Positions 45,196 to 62,809 of a stretch of DNA of 64,000 nt are shown piece by piece. This DNA is from Paracoccus sp. S-4012. Its GTDB lineage: Bacteria; Pseudomonadota; Alphaproteobacteria; Rhodobacterales; Rhodobacteraceae. Position 1 is the stretch's first letter. Each line of letters opens with the position of its first letter. Location: the NCBI RefSeq assembly GCF_009674885.1, contig NZ_WKKA01000007.1:62001-126000 (forward strand), read 5' to 3'. The notes under the pieces were generated by a model. The model made no database searches. It was given only the letters and a program-made list of their open reading frames with translations, and was not told where the DNA came from. The position numbers and the translations under genes were made by a program.

Positions 45196-45507
45196 TCAGG
45201 CGCCTTCGCCGAAGCGGTCGGCCACGAGCGCGGCGAGAGCCTCGGCGAGTTCCGCCGCCTGGCGGCCGCGGGTGGTCACATGAATACGACTGCCGCAGGG
45301 CGCGGCGAGCATCAGCAGGCCCATGATCGAATCGCCTGACACGCGTTCGCCGTCCTTCTCGACCGTGGCGCGGGCGTCGAAACGCTCCACCGTCTCGACG
45401 AACCGGGCCGAGGCGCGGGCATGCAGGCCCTTCTCGTTCACGATCTCGAGGACGCGCGTGACCTCGCCCGCCGCCATGGCAGCGCCGCCGCTGGCAGCAG
45501 GGCTCAC
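45196..45507 (-). CDS. HPr family phosphocarrier protein of the regulatory PTS
   Basis: This 103-residue HPr-like protein has the phosphorylatable histidine in KGLHARASARF (His29 from the chosen start) and the regulatory serine in GDSIMGLLML (Ser60), the target of HprK. I chose GTG 45507 because it overlaps the EIIA stop (GTGA); an ATG at 45477 would give a shorter form lacking a 10-residue leader. It works with the adjacent EIIA-Man and HprK in signalling rather than sugar uptake. Enzyme I is not in the window. Confidence 0.93.
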   Translation of the reverse strand: MSPAASGGAAMAAGEVTRVLEIVNEKGLHARASARFVETVERFDARATVEKDGERVSGDSIMGLLMLAAPCGSRIHVTTRGRQAAELAEALAALVADRFGEGA

Positions 45508-45911
45508 CACGCGACGCGGGCGGCGGGCAACGCCTCGGAGCTGTTGATGTATTTGCGGCCCGCCTCCTTGGCGCCGGCCACGGCCTCGTCGATCGGCAAC
45601 TGCCGCGACTTGGCCAGCTTCAGCAGCATGGGCAGGTTGGCGCCATAGAGGAACACTCGGCGGCAGCCGATGCAGGCGCGGTGCGCGAGGTTCGAGGGCG
45701 AGCCGCCATAGAGGTCCGTGACGACGACCACGCCCTGCCCCTCATCGACTGCATCCGCCGCGCGGCCGATCTCGGCCTCCTTCGCGGAGCGGTCATGGTC
45801 GTCTTCGATGGCGACCGCGCGGAGCCCGTTCTGGGGGCCTACCACATGCTCGATCGCTGCCTTGTATTCCCGCGCGAGGCCCCCGTGGGCCACGATCACG
45901 ATGCCGATCAA
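45504..45911 (-). CDS. PTS EIIA component, mannose family (regulatory)
   Basis: A 135-residue mannose-type EIIA domain with the phosphohistidine at residue 9 (IVIVAHGGLARE) and the conserved TDLYGGSPSNLA motif. No EIIB, EIIC or EIID genes are nearby, as usual in Alphaproteobacteria, where this protein is the end point of a regulatory PTS that reports carbon and nitrogen status. It lies 63 bases downstream of rapZ and overlaps the HPr start. Confidence 0.94.
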   Translation of the reverse strand: MIGIVIVAHGGLAREYKAAIEHVVGPQNGLRAVAIEDDHDRSAKEAEIGRAADAVDEGQGVVVVTDLYGGSPSNLAHRACIGCRRVFLYGANLPMLLKLAKSRQLPIDEAVAGAKEAGRKYINSSEALPAARVAW

Positions 45912-45974
45912 TGCCGTCCTTCCAGGGCTGCCTCCGGGGCCACGCCGCCGGTCTCCTTCGCGTCATCGACGCCT

Positions 45975-46895
45975 TCATCCGCCGGCCGGGCCGGCTGCGG
46001 CCGGTGCCGCGCCACGATGCTCCAGCTCGCGATGCCTAATTGACACCGGCCATCCAGCATCTGCAAGCGCGGCCGCCATCTTTTCCGCCAGTGTGACGGA
46101 ACGGTGTCTGCCGCCCGAGCATCCGAAGCCGATGGCCACGTGCGCCTTACCCTCCTCCAGATGGGCCGGCAGGACGAAAAGGACAAGGTCGCGCACCCGG
46201 TCGAAGTATTCCCCGAAGCGGGGATCGGACGCGACGTAATCCTGAACCGCAAGATCGCGCCCGTCGCCGGGACGCAGCGCGGGCTGCCAGTGCGGGTTGG
46301 CGAGAAAGCGGCAGTCGAAGACCATGTCGAGGCCGCGCGGCAGGCCGCGCTTGTAGCTGAAGCTGTGGATCGACACCGACATCCGCGCCTCTGGCCGGGG
46401 CGCGAACCATTGCGCGAGTTCGGCCTTCAGGTCGTGCGGGTTCATCTCGCCGGTGTCGATCAGCACGTCGGCACGGGCGCGGATGGGCGCCAGCAGCGCC
46501 CGTTCGGCCTCGATGCCCGAGAGCGGGCCGTCGATCGTGCCCAGCGGGTGACGGCGGCGAGTCTCGGAATAGCGGCGCAGCAGCACCTCGGGCGGGCAGT
46601 CGAGATAGAGGAGCTCGACCGCCCAGGCGTCGGTGCGCGCCAGCCGGTCGAGCATGTCGGAGAGGTTCTGGGTGGTGAAATCGCGGTTGCGCGTATCCAG
46701 CCCGAGGGCGAGAGGCACCGGCCGCGCCGGGCCGTCCACGAGCCGCGGGACCAGCGACAGCGGCAGGTTGTCGATCGCCTCGTAGCCGAAATCCTCGAGC
46801 GCATGGATCGCCGTCGAGCGCCCTGCCCCCGCCGGTCCCGTGACCAGCACCAGCCGGGTCGCGGGCGGCGCCTCCTCGATCCCGTCCACGCTCAT
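45975..46895 (-). CDS. rapZ: RNase adapter protein RapZ
   Basis: The 306-residue nucleotide-binding protein has an N-terminal P-loop GPAGAGRS at residues 20-27 and the C-terminal RapZ signature [16 protein letters not shown], with the [18 protein letters not shown] region in between. In enterobacteria RapZ directs RNase E to the small RNA GlmZ and senses glucosamine 6-phosphate; GlmZ is absent from Alphaproteobacteria, so the role here is open. The P-loop has Arg instead of Lys, a substitution I believe is common in alphaproteobacterial homologs. The start overlaps the hprK stop (ATGA). Confidence 0.94.
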
Positions 46896-49156: not shown

Positions 49157-49842
<686 letters not shown>

Positions 49843-49846
<4 letters not shown>

Positions 49847-50595
49847 GCCTCCTCGCCCAAGTAGGAGCGGCGGACCTCCGGGTTGCCGCGGATCTCGTCC
49901 ACGGTTCCGGTGGCGATGATGCGGCCATAGACCAGCACGCTGATGCGGTCGGCGAGGCGGAAGACGGCGTCCATGTCGTGCTCGACCAGCAGGATCGGCG
50001 CCTCCGACCGCAGGTCCGAGAGCAGCGCCACGAGTTGCCCTGCGCCCTCAGTGCCCATGCCCGCCATCGGCTCGTCGAGGAGGAAGGCGCGCGGCCTGAG
50101 CGCAAGCGCCATCGCCACCTCGAGCTTGCGCCGTTCGCCGTGGCTCAGCGCCGCCGCCGCAAAGTCCTCGCGTCCGTCCAGCCCCGCCTGCTGGATGTGG
50201 AAGCGCGCGGGCTCGGTCAGCGCCGGATCGGACAGCACCGGCCGCAGGAAGCCGTAGCTGCGCCCGGAGCCGCCCTGCACCGCAAGGCAGACGTTCTGCA
50301 GCACGGTGAAGTCCGGGATCACGCTCGAGACCTGAAAGCTGCGCGCCAGCCCCAACCGGGCGCGCGCCGCGGCGTCGAGGCTGTCGATGCGCTGCCCCTC
50401 GAACCGGACCTCGCCCCCGTCGGCACTGAGCTCGCCGACGATCTGCTTGATGAGCGTGGACTTGCCCGCGCCGTTCGGCCCTATCAGCGCGTGGATCTCG
50501 CCCGGCATCAGCGTCAGGCTGACGTCGTCGGTGGCGATCAGGGCGCCGAAGCTCTTCCGCAACCCGCGGATCTCGAGGATCGGGTCAGTGCGCAT
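49843..50595 (-). CDS. livG: Liv-type ABC transporter ATP-binding protein (LivG)
   Basis: A 250-residue ATPase of the LivG type with Walker A GPNGAGKS, signature LSHGERRKLEVAMAL (the H in place of G is common in this group) and Walker B FLLDEPMAGMG. The C-terminal YLGEEA tail is the LivG/BraF ending. It overlaps livM by 11 bases and livF by 4, so the two ATPases are made in balance. Confidence 0.93.
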
Positions 50596-51571
50596 TGTCG
50601 CGCCCCCTCCCCGACAGCATCCCCACGATCCCGCCCGGCGCCCAGAGGACGATCGCGAGCAGCACGAGGCCCAGCAGCACCTGCCAGTATTCGGTAATCC
50701 CCCCGAGCAGATGCTCCATCGTGACGAACACCACCGCCCCCGCGACCGGCCCCATCAGCCGCCCGACGCCGCCGAGGATGATGAAGACCATGATCTCGCC
50801 CGACATGTGCCAGTTGAGCATCGCGGGCGAGACGAAGCGGTTGAGATCGGCATAGAGCGAGCCGGCGAGGCCGGTGATCATGGCCGAGATGACGAAGGCC
50901 GTCAGGCGGATGCCGAAGGGCCGGATGCCCACCGCGACCGTCCGCTGCGTATTCCGCCGCGCCGCCTGCAGCGCGAGGCCGAAGCGGGCGCGCATCACGA
51001 CCGCCGTGAAGCCGAGCGCGAGCAGCAGGAGCGCGGTGCAGATCAGGAAATAGTTCAGCGGCCGCATCGTCGGCACGCCGGGAAACGTGTTGCGGACGTA
51101 GAAGCTGAGGCCGTCCTCGCCGCCGTACGCGGGCCAGCCGATCGCGAACCAGTAGATCATCTGCGCGAAGGCGAGCGTCACCATGATGAAATAGACGCCC
51201 GAGGTCCGCAGGCTCAACGCGCCGATGGCGAGGGCTGCGAGGCCCGAGACCAGCAGCACCATCGGCCAGATCGCCAGCATCTCGTTGGTGCCGTTCATGG
51301 TGTATGGCAGCGTCGTAAGCGGCGTGCCGGACATGGCGTGGCTGGCGAGGATGCCGGTGACATAGCCGCCGATGCCGAAGAAGGCGGCATGGCCGAAGCT
51401 GACGAGGCCGCCATAGCCGAGCGCGAAGTTGAGGCCAACGCCGGCAAGCGCGAAGATCGCGGCCTTGGTGGCGAGGGTCACGAGGAAGGCATGGCCGGTG
51501 AGGTGGGCGACCAACGCGCCGCCGATCAGCAGCCCGAGGACGGCGATGTTGACGAGGGCGAGCCGGCTCAT
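50585..51571 (-). CDS. livM: Liv-type ABC transporter permease (LivM)
   Basis: The 328-residue permease has about nine membrane segments and the LivM motifs LGYGGLVSFGHAAFFGIGGY near the first third and a VRMRARFGLALQAARRN-type cytoplasmic loop (here VMRARFGLALQAARRNTQR). A GGVGRLMGPVAGA motif follows. The start overlaps the livH stop by 4 bases. Together with LivH it forms the membrane channel. Confidence 0.92.
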   Translation of the reverse strand: MSRLALVNIAVLGLLIGGALVAHLTGHAFLVTLATKAAIFALAGVGLNFALGYGGLVSFGHAAFFGIGGYVTGILASHAMSGTPLTTLPYTMNGTNEMLAIWPMVLLVSGLAALAIGALSLRTSGVYFIMVTLAFAQMIYWFAIGWPAYGGEDGLSFYVRNTFPGVPTMRPLNYFLICTALLLLALGFTAVVMRARFGLALQAARRNTQRTVAVGIRPFGIRLTAFVISAMITGLAGSLYADLNRFVSPAMLNWHMSGEIMVFIILGGVGRLMGPVAGAVVFVTMEHLLGGITEYWQVLLGLVLLAIVLWAPGGIVGMLSGRGRDNAH

Positions 51572-52479
51572 GCGCGCGCCCCGAAGAGGCCCGTGGGCCG
51601 CCAGACCAGCACCACGGCCATGAGGATATAGACCGACATCGACGCCAGCGACGCCCCCAGCGTGTTGGCCGCGGCCTGCGGCATCACCTGCGCCAGCATC
51701 CCCGGCAGCAGCGCCTTGCCGAGCGAATCCGTCATGCCGACGAGGATCGCCGAGACCAGCGCCCCGCCGATCGACCCGATGCCGCCGATCACCACGACCA
51801 CGAAGGCGAGGATCAGCACTGGCTCGCCCATGCCGACCTGCACCGACTGCACCGCGCCGACCAGCGCGCCCGCGAGACCCGCCAAGGCGGCGCCAAGAGC
51901 GAAGACAACGGTATAGAGCTTCGAGATGTCCACCCCCAGCGCGCCGATCATCTCGCGGTCCGCCTCGCCCGCGCGGATGCGGATGCCAAGGCGGGTGCCG
52001 CGCATCAGCCAGAAGAGGCCGCCTGCGATGGCGAGGCCAAGGACGATCACGGCGAAGCGGAAGACCGGATAGACCAGCCCGCCCGGCAGCGTGACGGTCC
52101 CCGACAGCGAAGGCGGCAGCGTGAGGTAGAGCGGGAAGGAGCCGAAGAGCCAGCGCGTCCCCTCGGAGAAGATCAGGATCAGCGCGAAGGTCGCCAGCAC
52201 CTGGTCGAGGTGGTCGCGCCGGTAGAGGCGGCGGATCACCAGCAGCTCCATCAGCGCGCCCGCCGCCGCCGCCGCCGCGAGGCTCGCCGCAACGCCGAGC
52301 CAGAACGAGCCGGTTGCGGCCGCCACCACGGCGCAGGCGAAGGCGCCGATCATGTAGAGCGAGCCATGCGCCAGGTTGATGAGGCCCATGACGCCGAAGA
52401 CCAGCGTCAGGCCGGCCGCCATCAGGAACAGCGTCATGCCGTATTGCAGCCCGTTCAGGAGCTGCTCGAAGATCAACAT
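51568..52479 (-). CDS. livH: Liv-type ABC transporter permease (LivH)
   Basis: A 303-residue permease with the LivH N-terminal motif LNGLQYGMTLFLMAAGLTLVFG and MGLINLAHGSLYMIGAF, and a later GGIGSIGGALVSAILVG motif. Eight membrane segments are visible. The gene follows livJ after a 55-base gap that holds a perfect 11-bp hairpin on the minus strand. Confidence 0.92.
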   Translation of the reverse strand: MLIFEQLLNGLQYGMTLFLMAAGLTLVFGVMGLINLAHGSLYMIGAFACAVVAAATGSFWLGVAASLAAAAAAGALMELLVIRRLYRRDHLDQVLATFALILIFSEGTRWLFGSFPLYLTLPPSLSGTVTLPGGLVYPVFRFAVIVLGLAIAGGLFWLMRGTRLGIRIRAGEADREMIGALGVDISKLYTVVFALGAALAGLAGALVGAVQSVQVGMGEPVLILAFVVVVIGGIGSIGGALVSAILVGMTDSLGKALLPGMLAQVMPQAAANTLGASLASMSVYILMAVVLVWRPTGLFGARA

Positions 52480-52534: not shown

Positions 52535-53677
52535 TCACATGCTGCACTGCTCGGCGTAGGCGTCGCCGCGGTCCTCGATCGCCACCCCGACGATCTTGTT
52601 GGTCAGCACGCCATCGGCGTCCTTGACCACCTCGCGGACATAGAGGTCCTGAATCGGGTGCTGGTTCGGGCCGAAGGTGAAGTTGCCGCGGACGCTGTCG
52701 AAATCGGCTTCGCGCAGGGCCTCGCGGAAGGCATCGGCGTCGGTGACATCGGCCTTGGCCGCGGCCGAGAGGATCAGGTTCGCGGTGTCATAGGCCTGCG
52801 CCGCATAGACCGAGGGGATGCGACCGTATTCCTCCTTGAAGGCCTCGACGAACTTGTGGTTGGCCTCGTTGTCAAGGTCGGGCGCCCAGCTCGCGGTGTT
52901 GCGGATGCCCAGCGCCGCATCGCCCACGGCGGGCAGCACGTCCTGGCTGAAGCTGAAGGCCGGGCCGATCAGCGGCGTGGTCACGCCCGAGCCCGCATAT
53001 TGCTTGATGAAGCTGATCCCCATGCCGCCCGGCAGGAAGAAGAACACCGCGTCCGCCCCGCTGTCGCGGATCTGCGCGATCTCGCCCGCATAGTCGGTCT
53101 GGCCGACCTGGGTGTAGATCTCGCCCGCAAGCTCGCCCGTGTAGTAGCGCTTGAAGCCGGTCAGCGCGTCCTGCCCGGCGGGGTAGTTCGGGGCCATGAT
53201 GAAGACGTTCTTGTAGCCCGCATCCATTGCCGCCTGCCCCGCGGCCTCGTGGAAGTTGTCGTTCTGGTAGCTCACCGAGAAGTAGTTCGGATCGCACTGC
53301 GCGCCGGCCAGCGCCGAGGGGCCGGCATTGGTCGAGAGGTAGAACTTGCCCTGCTGGACCGCCGCCGGGACCACCGCCATGGCGAGGTTCGACCAGACGA
53401 TGCCGGTCAGGATGTCCACGTTGTCGGACTGGATCATCTTGTCGGCGATCTGCACCGCCACGTCGGGCTTCTGCTGGTCGTCCTCGGTCACGACGGTAAT
53501 CTCGGAGGCGGCGTCGCCCGCCAGTTTCAGCGCGAGGTCGAAGCCGTCGCGGGTATCCATGCCGAGGCCGGCGCCGCCGCCCGAGAGGGTGGTGATCATG
53601 CCGACCTTGACCGGCGCGGCGAAGGCGGTCCCGGCCATCAGCGCGGCAGCGAGGGAGAGGGTGGAGAGCAGTTTCAT
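52535..53677 (-). CDS. livJ: Liv-type ABC transporter substrate-binding protein (LivJ family)
   Basis: The 380-residue periplasmic binding protein has a signal peptide with cleavage near TAFAAPVKVG (residue 21), then the KVGMITTLSGGGAGLGMDTRD start of the type I periplasmic-binding fold. The pattern matches the aromatic/hydrophobic-acid branch of this family rather than the leucine-binding one. Cysteines near CDPN and at the C-terminus (CSM) may form a disulfide. It lies 51 bases downstream of kynA. The exact ligand should be found by binding assay; anthranilate, kynurenine and tryptophan are the candidates by position. Confidence 0.88.
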   Translation of the reverse strand: MKLLSTLSLAAALMAGTAFAAPVKVGMITTLSGGGAGLGMDTRDGFDLALKLAGDAASEITVVTEDDQQKPDVAVQIADKMIQSDNVDILTGIVWSNLAMAVVPAAVQQGKFYLSTNAGPSALAGAQCDPNYFSVSYQNDNFHEAAGQAAMDAGYKNVFIMAPNYPAGQDALTGFKRYYTGELAGEIYTQVGQTDYAGEIAQIRDSGADAVFFFLPGGMGISFIKQYAGSGVTTPLIGPAFSFSQDVLPAVGDAALGIRNTASWAPDLDNEANHKFVEAFKEEYGRIPSVYAAQAYDTANLILSAAAKADVTDADAFREALREADFDSVRGNFTFGPNQHPIQDLYVREVVKDADGVLTNKIVGVAIEDRGDAYAEQCSM

Positions 53678-53728: not shown

Positions 53729-54616
53729 TCAGAGGCCGGTTCGCAACCGCCATAGTTCGGGGAAGAGCTCGGTCTCGAGCATTCTCCGCAGATACTGCAC
53801 CCCAGCGGTGCCCCCGGTGCCGCGCTTGAAGCCGATGATGCGCTCGACCGTGGTCACGTGATTGAAGCGCCAGCGGCGGAAATAGTCCTCGAAATCGACC
53901 AGCTTCTCGGCCAGCTCGTAGAGTTCCCAATGGGTCTCGGGGTTGCGGTAGACCTCCGCCCATGCCGCCTCGACGCGGGGATCGGCGGCCCAGGGCTGGC
54001 GCGTGTCGCGCCCGAGGATGTCCTGCGGGATCGGCAGCCCGCGGCGCGCGGCGCAGGCCTGCACCACGTCATAGAGCGACGGCCGCTCCAGCTCCGCCAC
54101 CAGTGCCGCGTGCAGGTCGGGCCGGTGCTCGTGCGGCTTCAGCATGGCGTGGTTGCGGTTGCCGACGGCGTATTCGATCAGCCGATACTGGAACGACTGA
54201 AAGCCCGAGCTCTCGGCCAGGCTCGCCCGGAAGCTCTGGTATTCGCTGGGCGTCATGGTCCGCAGCACGTCCCAGGCGCTGTTCAACTGCTCGAAGATGC
54301 GCGCCACGCGGGTCAGCATCTTGAATGCCATCCGCAGCCGGTCCCCGGCGATTGCCGCCCGCGCCGCGCCGATCTCGTGCAGCGCCAGCTTCATCCACAG
54401 CTCGGAGGTCTGGTGCTGGATGATGAACAGCATCTCGTCATGCGCATCCGACAGCGGATGCTGGGCCGACAGCACCGGGTCGAGATGCAGGTAGTCGCCA
54501 TAGGACATGCGGCCCTCGAAGCCCATGCGCGCGCCCTCGGCCGAGGGGTCGTAGCGCCGCGGCACCCCGTCGCCGTCATAGCCAGGCGCCTCCGCCGTCG
54601 CGCTGCCCTCCGCCAT
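53729..54616 (-). CDS. kynA: Tryptophan 2,3-dioxygenase
   Basis: This 295-residue heme enzyme opens the indole ring of tryptophan to N-formylkynurenine. Visible family features are [10 protein letters not shown] near residue 37, [14 protein letters not shown] at 64-77, [18 protein letters not shown], and the heme-histidine segment [15 protein letters not shown] near residue 256. [13 protein letters not shown] motif is also present. Kynurenine formamidase and kynureninase genes are not in the window, so the path from formylkynurenine to anthranilate must be completed elsewhere. Upstream genes handle anthranilate via CoA esters, which explains the location. Confidence 0.95.
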
Positions 54617-54685: not shown

Positions 54686-56320
54686 TTACCCCGCCTCCTT
54701 CAACCGGAACCGCTGGATCTTGCCGCTCTCGGTCTTGGGCAGCGCCTCGGTGAAGATCACGCTGCGGGGATATTTGAAGGGCGCGATGGTCATCTTCACA
54801 TGGTCCTGGATGTCGCGGACCATCAGCCGGTCGCCCTCGAAGCCGGGCTTCAGCACCACATGCGCCTGCACGATATGTCCGCGCTGCTCGTCGGGGGCGC
54901 CGACCACGGCGCATTCGGCGACGGCCGGGTGCGAGAGCAGCGCGGCCTCGACCTCCGGCCCGGCGATGTTGTAGCCGGCCGAGAGGATGATGCCGTCGGT
55001 GCGCGCGGCGAAGTGGAAGCGGCCCTCCTCGTCCTGGTGGAACACGTCGCCGGTCAGGTTCCAGCCGTTCTGGACATATTGCCGCTGCTTCTCCTCGTCG
55101 GCGAGATAGCGGCAGCCGACCGGACCCTTCACGGCGAGGCGCCCGATCTCGCCGCGGGGCAGCTCGTTGCCGGCCTCGTCCACGATCTTCGCCTCATAGC
55201 CTGTCACGGGGCGACCGGTGGAGCCGGGATGGTGGTCGTCGAAGCGGTTGGTGACGAAGATGTGCAGCATCTCGGTCGAGCCGATGCCGTCGAGGATCGG
55301 CCGCCCGGTCTTCCTGATCCAGTCCTCGTAGACCGGCGCCGGCAGCGTCTCGCCCGCGCTCACGGCGGCGCGGAGCGAGCCGAGGTCCGCCCCCTCCTCC
55401 ATCGCGTTCAGCATCGCGCGATAGGCGGTCGGCGCCGTGAAGCAGATTGTGGCGCGGTGCTTCTGGATGATCTCGATCATGTTCGGCGGGCTGGCGTTCT
55501 CGAGCAGCGTCGCGGTGGCGCCGAAACGCAGCGGGAACACCGCCAGGCCGCCGAGGCCGAAGGTGAAGGCCAAGGGCGGGCTGCCCACGAACACATCGTC
55601 AGAGGTGACGTTCAGCACCTCCTTCGCATAGCCATCCGCGATCGTGAGAATGTCGCGATGGAAATGCATCGTGGCCTTGGGCGCGCCGGTCGTGCCCGAG
55701 GTGAAGCCCAGCAGCGCCACATCGTCGCGGCCGGTCCGCACGCAGTCGAAACGCACCGGCTTGCCCAGCGCCACGCGATCGAGCTCGGCGTCGTGGTTGG
55801 CGCTGCCGTCGAAGCCCACGACCGTCTCGAGGATGTCCGAGCGGCGCGTCGCCTCGACCAGTTCCTCCATCAGCCGGGTGTCGCACAGGGCGAACTTGAT
55901 CTCGGCTTTCTCCACGATCTTCAGCAGCTCGCCCGCGCGGAACATCGGCATGGTGTTGACGACCACCGCCCCGGCCTTGGTCGCGGCCAGCCAGCACGCC
56001 ACCATCGCCGGGTTGTTGGCTGAGCGGATCAGCACCCGGTTGCCCGGCTTGACGCCGTAGTCCTCGACCAGCGCATGGGCGATGCGGTTGGTCCAGTCGC
56101 TGAGTTCCTTGTAGGTCCGCTGCCGGCCATTGCCGATCAGCGCCACGTTGTCGCCGAAGCCCTTGGCGACCATGGCGTCGGTCAGCTCGTAGCCGGCGTT
56201 CAGCCACTCGGGATAACGGAAGTCGCCGAGGCGCAGCTCCGGCCACAGCTCCGCGGGCGGCAGGTTGTCGCGCGTGAAGCTGTCCACATGGCCCGACGGC
56301 CCGAGCGGTTCGTTCTTCAT
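54686..56320 (-). CDS. 2-aminobenzoate-CoA ligase-like AMP-forming enzyme
   Basis: A 544-residue ANL-superfamily ligase. The AMP-binding motif reads LGFTSGTTGAPKATMHFHRD and the later motifs GIGSTEMLHI, TGDVFHQDEEG and FKYPRSV/PKTESGKIQR are intact, with the A10 lysine present. The overall sequence fits benzoate/2-aminobenzoate CoA ligases rather than fatty-acid ligases. By position it is predicted to activate anthranilate to 2-aminobenzoyl-CoA for the monooxygenase/reductase at 60524. ATG 56320 has GGGAGGGG upstream. Benzoate or salicylate ligase activity cannot be excluded. Confidence 0.85.
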   Translation of the reverse strand: MKNEPLGPSGHVDSFTRDNLPPAELWPELRLGDFRYPEWLNAGYELTDAMVAKGFGDNVALIGNGRQRTYKELSDWTNRIAHALVEDYGVKPGNRVLIRSANNPAMVACWLAATKAGAVVVNTMPMFRAGELLKIVEKAEIKFALCDTRLMEELVEATRRSDILETVVGFDGSANHDAELDRVALGKPVRFDCVRTGRDDVALLGFTSGTTGAPKATMHFHRDILTIADGYAKEVLNVTSDDVFVGSPPLAFTFGLGGLAVFPLRFGATATLLENASPPNMIEIIQKHRATICFTAPTAYRAMLNAMEEGADLGSLRAAVSAGETLPAPVYEDWIRKTGRPILDGIGSTEMLHIFVTNRFDDHHPGSTGRPVTGYEAKIVDEAGNELPRGEIGRLAVKGPVGCRYLADEEKQRQYVQNGWNLTGDVFHQDEEGRFHFAARTDGIILSAGYNIAGPEVEAALLSHPAVAECAVVGAPDEQRGHIVQAHVVLKPGFEGDRLMVRDIQDHVKMTIAPFKYPRSVIFTEALPKTESGKIQRFRLKEAG

Positions 56321-56365: not shown

Positions 56366-56776
56366 TCAGTCCGGAATGACGGCGGTCGCCTCGATTTCGA
56401 CCTTGGCCCGATCCTCGATCAGTTCCGCAACAGGAATCATGGCCATCGACGGGAAGTGCTTGCCGAGATTCTTGCGGTAGATGGCGCCAAGTTCGCGCAG
56501 CCGGTCGAGATACTCGCGCTTGTCGGTGATGTACCAGGTCAGCCGCACGAGATGCTCGGGGCGTCCGCCCGCCGCCTCCAGCACCGTGACGATATTGGCG
56601 AGGGTCTGGTCGATCTGCTCGATCAGGTCGTCGGTCTCGAACTCCTGCTGGCCGTTCCAGCCGATCAGGCCTCCGAGAAAGACCATCCGGCCGCTGGCCG
56701 CGACGCCGTTGGCATAGCCGATTGCCGGCTTCCAGCCTTCGGGATTGAGAAACTCGTGCGGGCTCACGTCGTTCAT
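56366..56776 (-). CDS. RidA/YjgF family protein lacking the canonical arginine
   Basis: This 136-residue Rid-family protein has the VFLGGLIGW core and the C-terminal KVEIEATAV motif with the conserved glutamate. At the place of the catalytic Arg105 of RidA (usual FPARS) the sequence is FPSMA, so the residue is Met. Arg105 is needed for 2-iminobutanoate deaminase activity in RidA, so this protein probably belongs to one of the Rid subfamilies with another reaction. Inside an aminobenzoyl-CoA pathway an enamine/imine hydrolase releasing ammonium is the natural guess. Start overlaps the thioesterase stop (ATGA). Confidence 0.87.
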   Translation of the reverse strand: MNDVSPHEFLNPEGWKPAIGYANGVAASGRMVFLGGLIGWNGQQEFETDDLIEQIDQTLANIVTVLEAAGGRPEHLVRLTWYITDKREYLDRLRELGAIYRKNLGKHFPSMAMIPVAELIEDRAKVEIEATAVIPD

Positions 56777-57195
56777 GCCGCGTCCTCCTTCTGTGCCTCG
56801 ATGAGCCGCGCCCGGACCTCGTCCGGCCACGGCGCCGATTTCATTGCACGGCCGTCGATCCAGACCAGCCGCTTGTTGATGGTGAACCGTAGGGCGTCCT
56901 CGCCCTCGCCACGCCCTTCGATATTCACGTCGAGGCTGGCTCGGCCGACAGCGACCACGCGCAGGGTCAGTTCCACCTTGTCGCCAAGGCTCGACGGAAT
57001 GCGGAAGTCGCATTCCAGGTGCACCGTGGGCAGCCCGTCGCCATCGTCCATGATCCGGCGGTAGCTGCGCCCGACCACGTCGGCGAAGAAGTTCTCGACC
57101 ACGTGGTTCGCGAATTCGAGGAAGCGCGGATAGAAGACGATCTTCGCGGGATCGCAGTGGTTGAACTCGATCTGGACGGTGCGGCGGTAGGGCAT
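56773..57195 (-). CDS. 4-hydroxybenzoyl-CoA thioesterase-type hotdog protein
   Basis: This 140-residue hotdog-fold thioesterase shows the signature FNHCDPAKIVFYPRF at residues 11-25, with Asp15 as the expected catalytic acid. In aromatic-CoA pathways such enzymes release trapped CoA from dead-end thioesters. I chose ATG 57195 (GAGGGAGA upstream) over TTG 57210, which would overlap the acyl-CoA dehydrogenase stop. Cargo is inferred from the cluster only. Confidence 0.88.
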   Translation of the reverse strand: MPYRRTVQIEFNHCDPAKIVFYPRFLEFANHVVENFFADVVGRSYRRIMDDGDGLPTVHLECDFRIPSSLGDKVELTLRVVAVGRASLDVNIEGRGEGEDALRFTINKRLVWIDGRAMKSAPWPDEVRARLIEAQKEDAA

Positions 57196-57206
57196 CCGGG
57201 TCTCCC

Positions 57207-58364
57207 TCAAGCTCTGGCCGCCGCGTGGGCGTCGAGCACCGCGCGCGCGATCACCACCCGCTGCACGTCGCTCGCGCCCTCGTAGATCCGCAGCGCCCGG
57301 ATCTCGCGATAAAGGCTCTCGACCGTCTCGCCCACCCGCACCCCGTCGCCGCCATGCAGCTGCACCGCCATGTCGATGACCTTGGAGGCCGCCTCGGTGG
57401 CATAGAGCTTCGCCATCGCCGCCTCGCGGCTGACGCGGGCGGCGCCCATGTCCTTGGTCCAGGCGGCGCGGTAGACCAGCAGCGCGGCGGCGTCGATCTT
57501 CAGCGCCATGTCGGCGAGGTGCCCCTGCACCATCTGGAAATCCGCCAGCCGTCCGCCATCGGCCCGAACCCGCAGCGCGCGGCTCAACGCCTCGTCGAGC
57601 GCCCGACGCCCGAAGCCCAGCGCCGCGGCGCCCACGGTCGAGCGGAACACGTCGAGCACCGACATGGCGACCTTGAAGCCGCTGCCCGCCTCACCGATCA
57701 GCGCCTCCGCGGGGAGCCGCACACCGTTGAGCCGCAGATGCGCGAGCGGATGCGGCGCCATCACGTCGATGCGGCTGACGACCTCCAGCCCCTCGGCGTC
57801 GCCCGGCATGAGGAAGGCCGAGAGGCCCTTCGCGCCCGGCGCCTCGCCGGTGCGGGCGAAGACGACATAGACGCCCGCGATGCCGCCGTTCGAGATATAG
57901 GTCTTCTCGCCGTTCAGAACCCAGGAATCCCCCTCGCGCCGCGCCGTGGTCGCGGTCGAGGCCACGTCCGACCCCGCCCCCGGCTCGGTCAGGGCAAACG
58001 CCGCCATGACCTCGCCCGAGCGGGTCCGCTCCAGCCACTCGCGCTGCGCGGGCGAGCCGAAGAGGCTGATCGCCCCCATGCCGAGGCCCTGCATGGCGAA
58101 GCTGAAATCCGCGAGCCCGTCATGCCGCGCCAGCGTCTCGCGCGCGAGGCAGAGGGTGCGGACGTCCAGCCGCTCGCCCTCGCCGGCGCCGGTGGGCTGC
58201 AGCCAGCCATCGCGCCCAAGACGCGTCACCAGATCGCGGCAGGCGGCGTCGGCGTCCCCGTGATCCACATGGCCCAGCTCGCGCGCGCACCACGCGTCGA
58301 GCCCCTGCTGGAACTCGCGGTGCCGCTCCTCGAAGAACGGCCAGTCAAGAAAGCTGCGATCCAT
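57207..58364 (-). CDS. Acyl-CoA dehydrogenase family protein
   Basis: The 385-residue FAD-dependent enzyme has the mid-domain motif [15 protein letters not shown] and the C-terminal LHGGDGVR and [12 protein letters not shown], the last with the catalytic-base glutamate of medium-chain-type enzymes. It would pass electrons to ETF (etfBA at 37418-39102). In this cluster it is likely to oxidise a CoA-linked ring-derived intermediate. The ATG at 58364 was chosen because the region upstream holds an intergenic repeat element and no homology. Confidence 0.9.
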
Positions 58365-58370
58365 GCTTTG

Positions 58371-58413
58371 CCTTGATCCAAATATCCCGGGGGTCCGGGG
58401 GCAGCGCCCCCGG
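58371..58413 (-). repeat. Copy C of the GGATATTT intergenic element
   Basis: On the plus strand AAATATCCC (58380-58388) is followed by GGGGGTCCGGGGGC and its mirror GCCCCCGG. CCGGGGGC at 58395-58402 pairs perfectly with 58406-58413 around a 3-base loop. Seen in the direction of transcription, the hairpin comes right after the crotonase stop (58417) and ends in GGGATATTTGG before the acyl-CoA dehydrogenase start. Confidence 0.7.
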
Positions 58414-58416
58414 CCT

Positions 58417-59241
58417 TCAGTCGCCCTCGAAAACCGGCTTCTCCTTGGCAACGAACGCCCGGTAGGCGCGCTCGAAGTCGCGGGTCTGCATGCAGATCGC
58501 CTGCGCCTGCGCCTCGGCCTCGATCGCCTGGTCGAGGCTCATGTTCCATTCCTGGTTCAGCTGGGTCTTGGTGATCCCATGCGCGAAGGTCGGCCCGGCG
58601 GCGATCCGCTGGGCCAGCTTCAGCGCCTCGGCCTCCAGCGCTTCCGCCGGATGCACCGCGTTCCAGTAGCCCCAGGCGAGGCCCTCGTCGGCATCGAAGC
58701 TGCGCCCGGTATAGAGGAGCTCCGCCGCCCGCCCCTGCCCGATGATGCGCGGCAGCATGGCGCAGGCGCCCATGTCGCAGCCGGCGAGGCCGACGCGGGT
58801 GAAGAGGAACGCGCATTTCGCGTCCGGCGCGGCGAGCCGCAGGTCCGAGGCCATGCTGACGATCGCGCCGGCGCCGACGCAGACGCCCTGCACCGCCGAG
58901 ATGATCGGCTTGCCGCAATGGATCATCGCCTTGACCAGATCGCCGGTCATGCGGGTGAAGGCCAGCAGGTCCTTCATGTCCATGCCGACCAGGGGGCCGA
59001 TGATGTCATGGACATCGCCGCCGGAGCTGAAGTTGCCGCCGTTCGAGGCCCAGACCACCGCGTCGATGTCGTCGGCGTAGGCGAGCGCGCGGAAGGTGTC
59101 GCGCAACTCGGCGTAGCTCTCGAAGGTCAGAGGGTTCTTCCGGTCGGGCCGGTCGAGCCGGATCGTGGCGATGCGGTCCTGCGCCTGCCACAGGAAATGC
59201 CGCGGCTGATGGCCCGCCATGCTGGTGCCGTTGAAGCTCAT
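58417..59241 (-). CDS. Crotonase-fold (enoyl-CoA hydratase family) protein with altered active site
   Basis: A 274-residue crotonase-superfamily protein with the oxyanion-hole region ([11 protein letters not shown]) and [20 protein letters not shown]. By eye alignment with enoyl-CoA hydratase the two catalytic glutamates (E144 and E164 of rat crotonase) are replaced (I/V and R); an aspartate near GCDMGA matches the acid of dienoyl-CoA isomerase. So it is probably not a plain hydratase; isomerisation, hydrolysis or C-C cleavage of a ring-derived CoA ester is more likely. Start overlaps the MarR stop (ATGA). Confidence 0.83.
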
Positions 59242-59720
59242 GCCTTCTCCTTCGCTCCGTCCATCTGCGGCGAGACCTTCCGCAGGATCGCCCGCATCGT
59301 CTCGAGGTCGTCAAGGTTCAGCGCCCCGAAGAGCCGCGAGAGTTCCGCCTCGTGCCCGCTCGCCATGCCCTCGAACTGCGCACGGCCCGCCTCGGTCAGC
59401 GTGACGCGAACGGTGCGGCGGTCCTCGGTGCAGGGGGTGCGCTGCACCAGCCCCTCCTTCTCCAGACGGCCGACCACGTCGGTGGCGTTGCCGTTGCTGA
59501 CCAGCAGCATCCGGCTCAGCTCGCCCATCGGGATCGCCTCGCCCCGCCGCCACAGCGCCGCCATGACATCGAAGCGCGGCAGCGTGGTGCCGTGCTGCTC
59601 GCGCAGGTAGCCCCGCAGGCCCGCCTCGGTGGCGCGGGTGACGGTCAGCATCCGCAGCCAGAGGCGCAGGCGGCGCTTGGTGAGGCTCTCGCGCGCCTCG
59701 GAATTCCCTGGTCCGTCCAT
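59238..59720 (-). CDS. MarR family transcriptional regulator
   Basis: The 160-residue regulator has the winged helix of Mar[48 protein letters not shown] and the wing [16 protein letters not shown] (shown in parts, each separate). MarR proteins in aromatic-acid clusters often bind the CoA ester of the substrate. A perfect 12-bp palindrome upstream of the first gene (62875-62886) is the likely target. The gene sits inside the operon it probably controls. Confidence 0.92.
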
Positions 59721-59722
59721 CG

Positions 59723-60457
59723 TCAGACCTCCCCTCCGGCAATGGCGATGGCCTGACCGTTCACGCCCTCGGCGCCGGCACCGCAGAGCCACAGCGCCGC
59801 GGCCGTGACCTCCTCCGGCCGGATCAACCGCCGCTGCGGGTTGGTCGTGGTCAGCGCCCGCATCGCCTCCTCCTCCGAGCGGCCGGTCGTCTCCATGATG
59901 TTGGCGATCGAGCGTTCGGTCATCTCGGTGTCGAGGAAACCGGGGCAGAGGGCGTTCACCGTCACCGCGCGCCGCGCCACTTCCTGCGCGAGGCTGCGAA
60001 CGAGGCCCACGGTGCCGTGCTTGGCGGCCGCATAGGGCGCGACATAGGCGTAGCCCTTCAGACCGGCGGTGGAGGCGACGGCGATCAGCCGCCCCCAGTC
60101 CTGCATCCGGGCGAGACCCTCGCGGAAGGTCAGGAATACCCCGGTGAGGTTCACTGCCATCATGGCGTTCCACTGGTCGAGCGAGACCTTGCCGAAGGGT
60201 GCGCTGATCGAGGCGCCGGCATTGGCGATGACGATGTCGCAGGAACCGGCCGCGTCGAACATGGCCGCGACCGATGCCTCATCGGTGACGTCAGCCTCGA
60301 CAACCGCGGCCCCGGTCTTCGCCGCTACCGCATCCAGCGGCCCGCGCCGCCGCCCGGCGATCACGACCCGCGCGCCCGCCGCGGCAAAGCCGCGGGCGAG
60401 GTCCGCACCGACGCCCGTCCCGCCACCCGTGATGAGAACCGACCGACCTTCCAGCAC
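59723..60457 (-). CDS. SDR family oxidoreductase of the 2-aminobenzoate cluster
   Basis: The 244-residue classical SDR has TGGGTGVG as NAD(P) motif (residues 10-17), NAGAS, the catalytic serine in VASTAG and the YAAAK pair. Closing motifs LRRLIRPEEV- and GQAIAIAGGEV-like tails fit FabG-type enzymes. Position suggests it reduces or oxidises a hydroxyl/ketone on the ring or ring-opened CoA intermediate. Start is GTG at 60457 with GACAGAAGAAGGGG upstream, provided by repeat element D. The MarR gene begins 2 bases after its stop. Confidence 0.88.
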   Translation of the reverse strand: MLEGRSVLITGGGTGVGADLARGFAAAGARVVIAGRRRGPLDAVAAKTGAAVVEADVTDEASVAAMFDAAGSCDIVIANAGASISAPFGKVSLDQWNAMMAVNLTGVFLTFREGLARMQDWGRLIAVASTAGLKGYAYVAPYAAAKHGTVGLVRSLAQEVARRAVTVNALCPGFLDTEMTERSIANIMETTGRSEEEAMRALTTTNPQRRLIRPEEVTAAALWLCGAGAEGVNGQAIAIAGGEV

Positions 60458-60523: not shown

Positions 60524-62809
60524 TCACACCCGGATTTGCTCCTGCTCGCGCTCCCGCAGCCGCCGCGCCTGCGACCCGCCGGCGCGGTAGGGGTCGGGCC
60601 ATTTCGTCCCGCGGTCGCCCAGCGCCGTCGCCGCCCGCAGCGTCCAGTAGGGGTCCGCCAGATGCGGCCGCGCGAGGCACACGAGGTCCGCCCGGCCGGC
60701 CATCAGGATCGAGTTCACATGATCCGGCTCGTAGATGTTGCCGACCGCCATGGTGGGGATGCCCAGCTCGTTGCGGATGCGGTCGCTGAAGGGCGTCTGG
60801 AACATGCGGCCATAGACTGGCTTCGCGTCGGGGCTGGTCTGCCCGGCCGAGACGTCGATGATGTCCGCGCCTGCCTCGTGGAAGGCGCGCGCGATCTCGA
60901 CCGCCTCCTCGGGGGTCACGCCCTCGTCGCCCAGCCAGTCGTTGGCGCTGATCCGCACCGACATCGGCTTCTCGGCCGGCCAGGCCTCGCGCATGGCGCG
61001 GAAGACCTCGAGCGGGTAGCGCAGCCGGTTCTCGAGGCTGCCGCCATACTCGTCGGTCCGCCGGTTGGAGGCCGGGCTGATGAAGCTCGAGATCAGGTAG
61101 CCGTGGGCGGCGTGCAGCTCGACCATGTCGAAGCCGCAGCGCGCGGCCATCTTCGTCGCCTCCACGAACTCGTCGCGGACCATGTCCATGTCGGCGCGGT
61201 CCATTTCCTTCGGCGTGTCGGCGTCCTCGTCCCACGGGATCGCGCTGGCCGAGATCAGGGGCCAGTTGCCCTCCTTCAGCGGTTTCTCGGCCCCGTCCCA
61301 GCCGAGCCCGGTCGAGCCCTTGCGGCCGGAATGGCCGATCTGGCAGCAGATCTTCGCGTCGCTCTCGGCATGGACGAAGTCCACGATCCGCTTCCACGCC
61401 GCCTCATGCTCGGGCGCGTAGAGGCCCGGGCAGCCGGGGGTGATGCGGCCCTCGGGCGAGACGCAGGTCATCTCGGTATAGACCAGCCCCGCGCCGCCCT
61501 TCGCGCGCTCGCCCAGATGGACGAGGTGCCAGTCGGTCGGCGTCCCGTCGACCGCCTTGTACTGCGCCATGGGCGAGACGACGACGCGGTTCTTCAGCTC
61601 CATGTCGCGCAGCTTGAAGGGCGCGAACATCGGCGCGCGGCCGGGCTCGCCGCCGGCCTGCTTCTGGAACCAGTCTTCGGCGCTGCCGAGCCATGCGGGG
61701 TCGCGCAGGCGCAGGTTCTCGTGGCTGATGCGCTGGCTGCGGGTCAGCAGCGAGTAGTTGAACTGCACCGGGTCGAAGCCGAGGTAGCGCTCCACCTCCT
61801 CGAACCACTCGAGCGAGTTGCGCGCCGCCGACTGCAGCCGCAGCACCTCGAAGCGCCGCTCCTCCTGGTAGCGGACGAAGGCGGCCTCCATCGTCGGCTC
61901 GCTGTGCAGGTAGTCGGCGAGCGCGATCGCGCTGTCGAAGGCCAGCCGCGTGCCGGAGCCGATCGAGAAATGCCCTGTCGCCGCAGCGTCGCCCATCAGC
62001 ACGACGTTCTCGTGCCACCACTTCTCGCAGATCACGCGCGGGAAGTTCATCCACACCGCCGAGCCGCGCAGATGCGCCGCGTTCGACATCAGCTCATGCC
62101 CGCCGAGATGCGATTCGAAGACCTTGCGGCAGGTCTCGACCGTCTCCTCCTTGGTCATGTGCTCGAAGCCCATGCGGTCCCAGACTTCCTGCGTCGTCTC
62201 GACGATGAAGGTCGCGGTGTTCTCGTCGAACTGGTAGACATGGGCCCACATCCAGCCGGCGTCGGTCTTCTCGAAGATGAAGGTGAAGGCGTCGTTGAAG
62301 TTCTGATGCGTGCCGAGCCAGATGAACTTGCACAGCCGGGTGTCGATGTCGGGCTTGAAGACGTCGGCATATTCCGCCCGCACGCGGCTGTTGATGCCGT
62401 CGGCGCCGACCACGAGGTCGTAGTCCTGGCGGTATTCCTCGGCCGACTTGAACTCGGTCTCGAAGCGCATCTCGACGCCCAGCTCGCGGGCGCGCGCCTG
62501 CAGCAGGACCAGCATCTGCTTGCGGCCGAGCCCGGCGAAACCGTGCCCGCCCGAGACGATCCGCTCGCCCTCCTTCACGACGGCGATATCGTCCCAGTAG
62601 ATGAAGCTGTCGCGGATCGCGTCGGTGGACTTGGGGTCGTTCTTCTGCATCCGCTCGAGCGCGTCGTCGCTGAGGACCACGCCCCAGCCGAAGGTGTCGT
62701 TGGCGCGGTTGCGCTCGATCACCGTGACCTCATGGGCCGGGTCGCGCAGCTTCATGCTGATGGCGAAATAGAGCCCCGCAGGCCCTCCTCCCAGGCACAG
62801 AACCTTCAT
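60524..62809 (-). CDS. 2-aminobenzoyl-CoA monooxygenase/reductase-like fusion (flavin monooxygenase + OYE)
   Basis: A 761-residue protein with two flavin domains. Residues 1-385 are a class A flavoprotein monooxygenase: GGGPAG at 7-12, VVGADG at 133-138, [14 protein letters not shown] at 273-286. Residues 393-761 are an Old Yellow Enzyme-type reductase ([20 protein letters not shown], later [11 protein letters not shown]). This architecture is that of 2-aminobenzoyl-CoA monooxygenase/reductase of Azoarcus evansii; databases often call it bifunctional salicylyl-CoA 5-hydroxylase/oxidoreductase. It is the first gene of the operon; GGGAGAGACGG precedes the ATG. Confidence 0.9.

Follow-up and report, generated by a model that had tools for sequence, protein, structure and literature searches.

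A Rid-family gene of Paracoccus sp. S-4012 (contig NZ_WKKA01000007.1), found in a stretch of 64,000 nucleotides that we refer to as the window, encodes a protein in which methionine replaces the arginine regarded as catalytic in RidA. Throughout the genomes examined, this gene nearly always accompanies the gene for 2-aminobenzoyl-coenzyme A monooxygenase/reductase (ACMR), which makes its product a good candidate for the missing nitrogen-removal step in the coenzyme A (CoA)-dependent aerobic breakdown of anthranilate. We propose, with a probability of about 0.6, that the window Rid is a hydrolase of a distinct methionine-bearing clade dedicated to this pathway, where it would release ammonium from an enamine thioester. 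It is an even bet, in our estimate, that nitrogen is truly released by the Met-type subfamily found across Bacteria and Haloarchaea, which would hydrolyse a beta-enamino CoA thioester without the arginine that has been held necessary and sufficient in Rid deaminases.

The open reading frame runs on the minus strand from position 56776 down to 56366 and encodes 136 amino acids. Its product matches PF01042 (YjgF-YER057c-UK114) with 65.9 bits against a gathering score of 27.3, placing it in the Rid superfamily, whereas TIGR00004, the NCBIfam model of Rid detoxifying hydrolases, gives 54.5 bits, about half of the cut-off of 106.25, placing it outside the RidA subfamily. An AlphaFold2 model of the monomer (mean predicted local distance difference test score 93.7; predicted template modelling score 0.88) is that of an ordinary Rid protomer, two of which form the active-site cleft in the homotrimers of the family, and the Foldseek and VIA-align rows were Rid-family chains. 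The best VIA-align rows, with Z between 17 and 18.3, belong to RutC, YabJ and RidA-type chains and cannot be told apart; at the top, RutC (3v4d, chain D; Z 18.3, root mean square deviation 2.5, 128 residues aligned, 24% identity) is tied with many RidA chains, many others lying within about 1. These searches returned ranges rather than residue pairs, and the equivalence of Met and Arg rests on sequence alignments.

As the original prediction had stated, the position of RidA Arg105 reads FPSMA in the window protein and the catalytic arginine is gone. In a phmmer alignment the FPSMA of the motif HFPSMAMIPV falls under KPARS of Bacillus subtilis YabJ (1qd9), and alignment with Escherichia coli RidA, TdcF, RutC, YoaB and YjgH (taken from NC_000913) places Met111 at Arg105, Glu127 at Glu120, Tyr21 at Tyr17, Gly97 at Asn88 and Met113 at Cys107 of RidA. 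The clade thus keeps the Glu120, Tyr17 and Gly31 positions of the RidA subfamily (E. coli and Salmonella RidA, TdcF, UK114) and differs from it by the change of Arg105 to Met and Asn88 to Gly and by the loss of Cys107.

These features are conserved. Methionine occupies the Arg105 column in 98 of 99 linked relatives, that is, those beside ACMR-cluster genes in the stretch examined, which for some does not reach ACMR itself; the exception, L083, has Thr. In the same 99 the Glu120 column is always Glu, the Tyr17 column Tyr (94) or Phe (5), the Asn88 column Gly (98) and the Cys107 column never Cys. (A relative truncated by an in-frame stop, L088, was left out of these counts and of the tree, and paralogues from the window's own genome were not counted.) Glu127, Gly36, Pro109 and Met111 are strongly conserved, Met111 being invariant when the window protein is aligned with 46 named relatives, and the clade has near-invariant residues of its own (W15, G39, W40, R78, W81, G97 and G105), all of which differ in E. 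coli RidA, TdcF and RutC; RutC has S, F and I at the three tryptophans. The constancy of the methionine is beyond chance and, together with these clade-specific residues, indicates a settled family trait rather than a decayed copy. Ser at residue 110 is a local peculiarity of the window protein, 89 of the 99 having Ala there. In a tree of 70 Rids the clade splits from four E. coli Rids with a support of 91 (not starred, on 134 columns only). Methionine is also present in 24 of 26 relatives without cluster neighbours in the stretch examined (L125 and L126 have Ile), and we therefore rejected it as a specific mark of the ACMR pathway: shared by paralogues of other context, it is not diagnostic of an anthranilate-derived substrate. 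The genome of the window holds six further PF01042 genes (L001 to L006), of which L002 and L004, read by eye, have the arginine and the other four do not.

In the published scheme, RidA and Rid1-3 carry the arginine, Rid4 and Rid7 have Trp in its place, and Rid5 and Rid6 have a variable residue, with the Glu kept (PMC4433059). The window Rid has neither Arg105 of RidA nor Arg104, which RutC needs for its 3-aminoacrylate deaminase activity, nor, if this residue occupies the same column, Arg117 of the 2-aminomuconate deaminase AmnE (PMC6742747). The Trp of Rid4 and Rid7, seen in the same alignment in E. coli YjgH (Rid7), is missing as well. By these rules the protein is consistent with Rid5 or Rid6, the subfamilies that remain: like their members, Yersinia pestis Y3550 included, it has a variable residue for Arg and keeps the Glu and a Tyr or Phe (PMC4433059, PMC7221256), a likeness that is not sufficient for assignment. 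In 5v4f, the solved chain closest in sequence, this column when read by eye has no arginine either. In the portions available of the two papers just cited, no member of Rid5 or Rid6 has a demonstrated activity, and the available text on the Rid6 of the nicotine cluster of strain S33 gives a role that is only predicted (PMC7688666).

Among 398 Pseudomonadota genomes, searched at E 1e-20 for the Rid protein and at E 1e-200 for the ACMR family, 69 had both, 2 had ACMR only, none had Rid only and 327 had neither, so that Rid is present in 69/71 ACMR genomes against 0/327 others; by genus, Rid occurs in 43 and ACMR in 45 of 212. The two genes lie at most 20 kb apart in 61 of the 69 genomes, with a median distance of 6.1 kb (one pair per genome, on the same contig where one existed). 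A class-wide sample of 289 genomes, some of them shared with the first sample, gave 48 with both, 5 with ACMR only, 7 with Rid only and 229 with neither; here G064, with a partial ACMR, and G007, with an ACMR over two contigs, were scored positive by hand, and 3 of the 63 Rid matches (the window, G277 and G187:C44) lie outside the neighbourhood set. Four of the Rid-only genomes (G011, G067, G095 and G280) have divergent Rids, with identities of 39-43%, that form one branch with a support of 94 (not starred). The best Rid of G187 is 51% identical, that of G125 groups with an oxidoreductase-linked Met subclade, and that of G196 stands on a short contig beside homologues of the ligase, acyl-CoA dehydrogenase and tryptophan dioxygenase. 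As a control, E. coli RidA used as the query on the same 289 genomes gave 10 matches at E 1e-20, of which a single one, in G014, falls in a genome with ACMR; with so few genomes matching, this control is weak. No ACMR was found among viral contigs.

The same association is seen from the side of ACMR. Among the best 80 of 592 named ACMR loci, 62 carry Rid, and the motif [FY]PAM[AST] is present in 61 of these, the last being unread in a partial alignment. Thirteen of the other 18 have less than 4 kb of sequence after ACMR, four end at the thioesterase gene and one (L147) has a different layout; in 17 of the 18, then, the sequence stops before or at the place where Rid would be expected. Where thioesterase and Rid genes are both present, the former lies directly upstream on the same strand in 70 of 72 loci.

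A second type of ACMR locus provides a contrast. In the two ACMR-only genomes of the Pseudomonadota sample (G608 and G560), ACMR adjoins a cupin gene whose product is 72-74% identical to a cupin of Cupriavidus taiwanensis; the latter, to which annotated gentisate 1,2-dioxygenases are about 40% identical, is encoded beside a fumarylacetoacetate hydrolase (FAH) gene and ACMR. Three Novosphingobium loci, one locus of Caballeronia sp. SBC1 and that of C. taiwanensis bring the gentisate-type loci to seven (Table 1), a second N. humi record of this layout not being among them. Their gene content suggests clusters leading from salicylyl-CoA to gentisate, and hence a nitrogen-free substrate, with ACMR homologues that are plausibly salicylyl-CoA 5-hydroxylases. 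The clade Rid is found in none of the seven, nor are a crotonase, acyl-CoA dehydrogenase, short-chain dehydrogenase/reductase (SDR) or window-type ligase at 33% identity or more; L227 and L233, both from Novosphingobium, have another Rid outside the clade, with a PAPNT motif, at about 3.9 kb and some 6 kb from ACMR. Caballeronia sp. SBC1 has two ACMRs, one in each layout, and its Rid stands only beside the anthranilate one, which has a full cluster. Hotdog-fold ammonia lyases exist, and the thioesterase was therefore considered as the deaminase; it is disfavoured because a homologue of at least 33% identity occurs in 5/7 gentisate-type loci and was not found in 34 of 93 loci with ACMR and Rid.

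The pairing of ACMR and Rid reaches beyond the lineage of the window, to Deinococcus psychrotolerans, Comamonas, Limnohabitans, Caballeronia, Arthrobacter, Rhodococcus and the haloarchaeon Natronosalvus halobius. All the Rids from Deinococcus, Comamonas, Limnohabitans, Arthrobacter, Rhodococcus and Natronosalvus have Met at the Arg105 column, and those of Comamonas and Caballeronia keep the Met and not the preceding FP. A plasmid of Natronosalvus halobius (L212:9492-15831) encodes a 720-amino-acid fusion of an FAD-monooxygenase and an old yellow enzyme, that is, both ACMR domains, along with a Met-type Rid, acyl-CoA dehydrogenases and F420-related genes; this is apparently an archaeal version of the pathway, perhaps F420-dependent. 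In the anthranilate cluster of Deinococcus psychrotolerans (L208:10573-13423), Rid follows the genes for a cyclase-family protein (PF04199) and a thiamine pyrophosphate-dependent enzyme. Plasmid pAL1 of Arthrobacter sp. Rue61a carries ACMR, ligase, Rid (YPAM), cupin and FAH genes, with four genes between Rid and ACMR, and the 18 kb examined contained no homologue of the window crotonase, acyl-CoA dehydrogenase or SDR. ACMR, ligase and Rid are likewise kept in Arthrobacter sp. ERGS1:01 and Rhodococcus, where the stretch examined showed no crotonase homologue. The small cupin and FAH-family hydrolase of Actinomycetota clusters L210, L211 and L236, where the stretch examined also held no crotonase homologue, suggest a second lower pathway after ACMR. 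Clusters of Actinomycetota narrow down the role after de-aromatization: in them, Rid would follow the amine substrate and not the crotonase module.

The intermediate left by ACMR is an enamine, as originally predicted, but beta-enamino thioester (vinylogous thiocarbamate) describes it better than the term vinylogous amide used in that prediction; its 5-oxo group is not conjugated with C1=C2. 1,3-Dicarbonyls are the type of compound cleaved by crotonase- and FAH-family hydrolases. In the mechanism that we propose, Rid would bind the CoA-linked ring in the cleft between its subunits, as is typical of the family; Glu127, which has been retained, would help to position water, and the enamine or imine would be hydrolysed to 2,5-dioxocyclohexanecarboxyl-CoA and ammonium, after which the crotonase, or an FAH-type hydrolase in Actinomycetota, would open the 1,3-dicarbonyl ring. 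The proposed product matches the C7H8O4 CoA ester, suggested to be a cyclohexanedione-carboxyl-CoA, that was reported only from anthranilate-grown Rue61a cells (PMC3534580). The arginine that binds the ligand carboxylate in RidA relatives (PMC4433059) and in RutC would not be needed, because the carboxyl group is here a thioester; for such a substrate, which has no carboxylate, a swap of Arg for a neutral, apolar residue is to be expected.

The chemically closest enamine is that handled by RutC, a Rid of the E. coli rut pathway that deaminates 3-aminoacrylate, the simplest beta-enamino carbonyl compound of this kind; it differs from the window Rid in having Arg104, which it requires, and in acting on a free acid rather than a CoA thioester (PMC8113886). 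AmnE (6izh) resembles the window protein in fold (Z 16.1, 127 residues aligned) and in deaminating an enamine of aromatic degradation, and differs in being a hexamer that acts on a free dicarboxylate and retains Arg117 (PMC6742747); aligned by structure, the two are 16% identical. AmnE therefore cannot serve as the arginine-less precedent for which 2-aminomuconate deaminase had been cited, and RutC too needs the arginine. The core of the earlier interpretation, that Rid may release ammonium from the pathway intermediate, has nevertheless become more likely, given the absent arginine, the tie to ACMR and the gentisate-type loci without Rid.

Several observations weigh against our proposal. Changing the arginine to alanine leaves RidA inactive or nearly so (PMC4433059) and RutC (R104A) inactive (PMC8113886), and in the text available the other arginine-less proteins with a reported test, Salmonella enterica Rid7 and Y. 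pestis Y3550 (the latter in PMC7221256), likewise had little or no activity. Co-occurrence alone cannot name the step, since any other gene of the anthranilate cluster would show it similarly, and the step is argued here from the chemistry and the contrasts rather than from the counts. Since the remainder of the lower pathway is missing from the gentisate-type loci too, the absence of Rid there fits any role after de-aromatization. Rid and ACMR are not close in 8 of the 69 genomes (3 far apart on one contig, 5 on different contigs); of the class-sample genomes with ACMR only, no cluster is recognisable in G231 (100% complete), that of G226 (70% complete) has no Rid within 20 kb, and G025, G064 and G224 are represented by short contigs. 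The Rhodococcus locus, where an SDR and an acyl-CoA dehydrogenase are annotated close to the edge, is a weaker case than that of Rue61a, and anthranilate still supports growth of a Rue61a mutant that lacks the plasmid (PMC3534580). Finally, one Met subclade with the same PAM motif is encoded, in 5 of 7 members, beside indolepyruvate:ferredoxin-oxidoreductase-like genes and not beside ACMR: in L090, L098, L102, L103 and L121, Rid lies at about 9.8-10.2 kb next to two-gene enzymes with POR_N/POR and TPP_enzyme_C domains, and for L109 and L122, placed in the subclade by sequence, no such neighbour was found in the stretch examined. The 2-oxo or 2-imino acids of that oxidoreductase would carry a free carboxylate.

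With the arginine thought necessary for deaminase activity gone, Rid might act on the same CoA ring without deaminating it, as an enamine-imine or keto-enol tautomerase or as a ring-opening hydrolase, while ammonium leaves by solvent hydrolysis; the intermediate can indeed deaminate non-enzymatically, at least under acid (PMC3534580, citing Langkau 1990). It is, however, described as unstable below pH 5 (PMC3534580), which suggests that solvent hydrolysis would be slow at cell pH; the clusters already hold crotonase or FAH-type genes suited to ring opening, and the Glu120 column is Glu throughout. We consider this alternative unlikely. Distinctly unlikely, in our view, is a role in damage control, in which Rid would hydrolyse not the main intermediate but the quinone imine of 5-hydroxyanthraniloyl-CoA, a p-aminophenol that ACMR is reported to form as a by-product under NADH limitation; cells gave a mass taken to be that of hydroxyanthraniloyl-CoA (PMC3534580), and damage pre-emption is a known function of RidA (PMC4433059). 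Such a role would explain the co-occurrence and the absence with salicylate equally, but the near-constant presence of Rid and its coupling to the thioesterase suit a pathway step better. We also know of no quinone-imine hydrolase in the Rid family, although no search for one was made, and count this against it.

Very improbable is the ordinary RidA function, hydrolysis of 2-aminoacrylate or 2-iminobutanoate, with the arginine supplied from elsewhere. The fold is normal and a second near-invariant arginine, Arg78 (96/99), is available (a structure of goat RidA K78A, 8qop, exists, whose altered Lys may belong to the same column); yet Arg78, in strand 76-83, replaces a Lys of RidA and TdcF and does not appear in the list of ligand-contacting residues in the available text of PMC4433059, the TIGR00004 score is far below the cut-off, the genome already has the arginine-bearing paralogues L002 and L004, and family searches recognised no pyridoxal phosphate enzyme gene in the cluster. 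A non-catalytic role as operon regulator, chaperone or 'translation inhibitor', of the kind reported for other family members, is just as improbable, given the strong conservation of Glu127, Gly36, Pro109 and Met111, the separate MarR or PaaX regulators of the clusters, and the fact that a chaperone would not be expected to track one catabolic flavoenzyme.

The presence of a Rid gene in such clusters is probably not new, as an account of the Azoarcus evansii clusters by Schuehle in 2001 reportedly listed a 'putative translation inhibitor protein', as Rid proteins used to be called, with no function assigned. These 2-aminobenzoyl-CoA clusters belong to the same pathway of ACMR and ligase (as cited in PMC4539516). 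Predicted Rid genes in betaproteobacterial benzoate and catechol regulons have likewise been proposed to serve aromatic degradation, in a study of regulon predictions whose available text treats neither the ACMR pathway nor the arginine (PMC6449761). In the literature covered, consisting of titles and abstract openings with most subscription journals missing, no assignment of a Rid protein to the nitrogen-release step of anthranilate breakdown was found. What is new here is that the loss of the arginine is conserved, that Rid and ACMR are distributed nearly one to one, and that the gentisate-type loci provide a contrast. Arginine-less Rid subfamilies were said to 'remain mysterious' in 2015 (PMC4433059), and by 2021 none of those tested had deaminase activity, according to the text available of PMC8113886. 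If our proposal is correct, the rule by which Rid proteins are called active or inactive from the arginine would fail for thioester substrates, the arginine would do no more than clamp the carboxylate of free-acid substrates, and Rid subfamilies without it would merit testing on thioester or neutral enamines. The near one-to-one genome link makes both questions, that of the nitrogen-releasing step and that of the arginine, testable with one purified protein and one deletion.

The genes around Rid are consistent with an anthranilate setting, as judged from their predicted products (Table 1). Their order on the minus strand is ACMR fusion, SDR, MarR, crotonase, acyl-CoA dehydrogenase, thioesterase, Rid, AMP ligase, tryptophan 2,3-dioxygenase and ATP-binding cassette (ABC) transporter, and the crotonase is a candidate for the hydrolytic opening of the beta-keto thioester ring. 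A salicylate reading of the cluster, suggested by the NCBIfam label of its ACMR, was rejected because the same label is borne by copies near tryptophan/kynurenine genes and because gentisate-dioxygenase-like neighbours form the other layout. The closest named relative of the window ACMR, among the matches listed, is that of Oceaniovalibus guishaninsula (85%), followed by those of Rhodobacteraceae such as Paracoccus.

Table 1. Genes of the window cluster, with window positions, and the gentisate-type loci used for contrast
Feature	Position or locus	Strand	Basis or remark
Rid-family protein, Met111 at RidA Arg105 position	56366..56776	minus	PF01042 and alignments
ACMR, 2-aminobenzoyl-CoA monooxygenase/reductase type fusion	60524..62809	minus	FAD_binding_3 and Oxidored_FMN; NCBIfam PRK08255, salicylyl-CoA 5-hydroxylase/oxidoreductase
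SDR dehydrogenase	59723..60457	minus	family search
MarR-type regulator	59238..59711	minus	family search
Crotonase PRK08258	58417..59241	minus	474.9 bits, cut-off 330
Acyl-CoA dehydrogenase	57207..58373	minus	family search
4HBT/hotdog thioesterase	56773..57210	minus	stop overlaps Rid start (ATGA)
AMP ligase, presumed anthranilate-CoA ligase	54686..56320	minus	benzoate-CoA ligase TIGR02262, 369.2 bits, just below cut-off 375.25
Tryptophan 2,3-dioxygenase	53729..54616	minus	424.3 bits, cut-off 390.7; links cluster to tryptophan/kynurenine
Branched-chain-type ABC transporter genes, presumed uptake	49157-49846, 49843-50595, 50585-51571, 51568-52479	minus	translations read by eye
ABC binding protein, presumed uptake	52535-53677	minus	family search
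Gentisate-type loci	L213, L220, L221, L227, L229, L232, L233		ACMR homologue, gentisate-dioxygenase-like cupin and FAH

Elsewhere in the window, at 45196-46895, minus-strand open reading frames resemble HPr, an EIIA-type protein of the phosphotransferase system and RapZ, as judged from their translations by eye with no family search.
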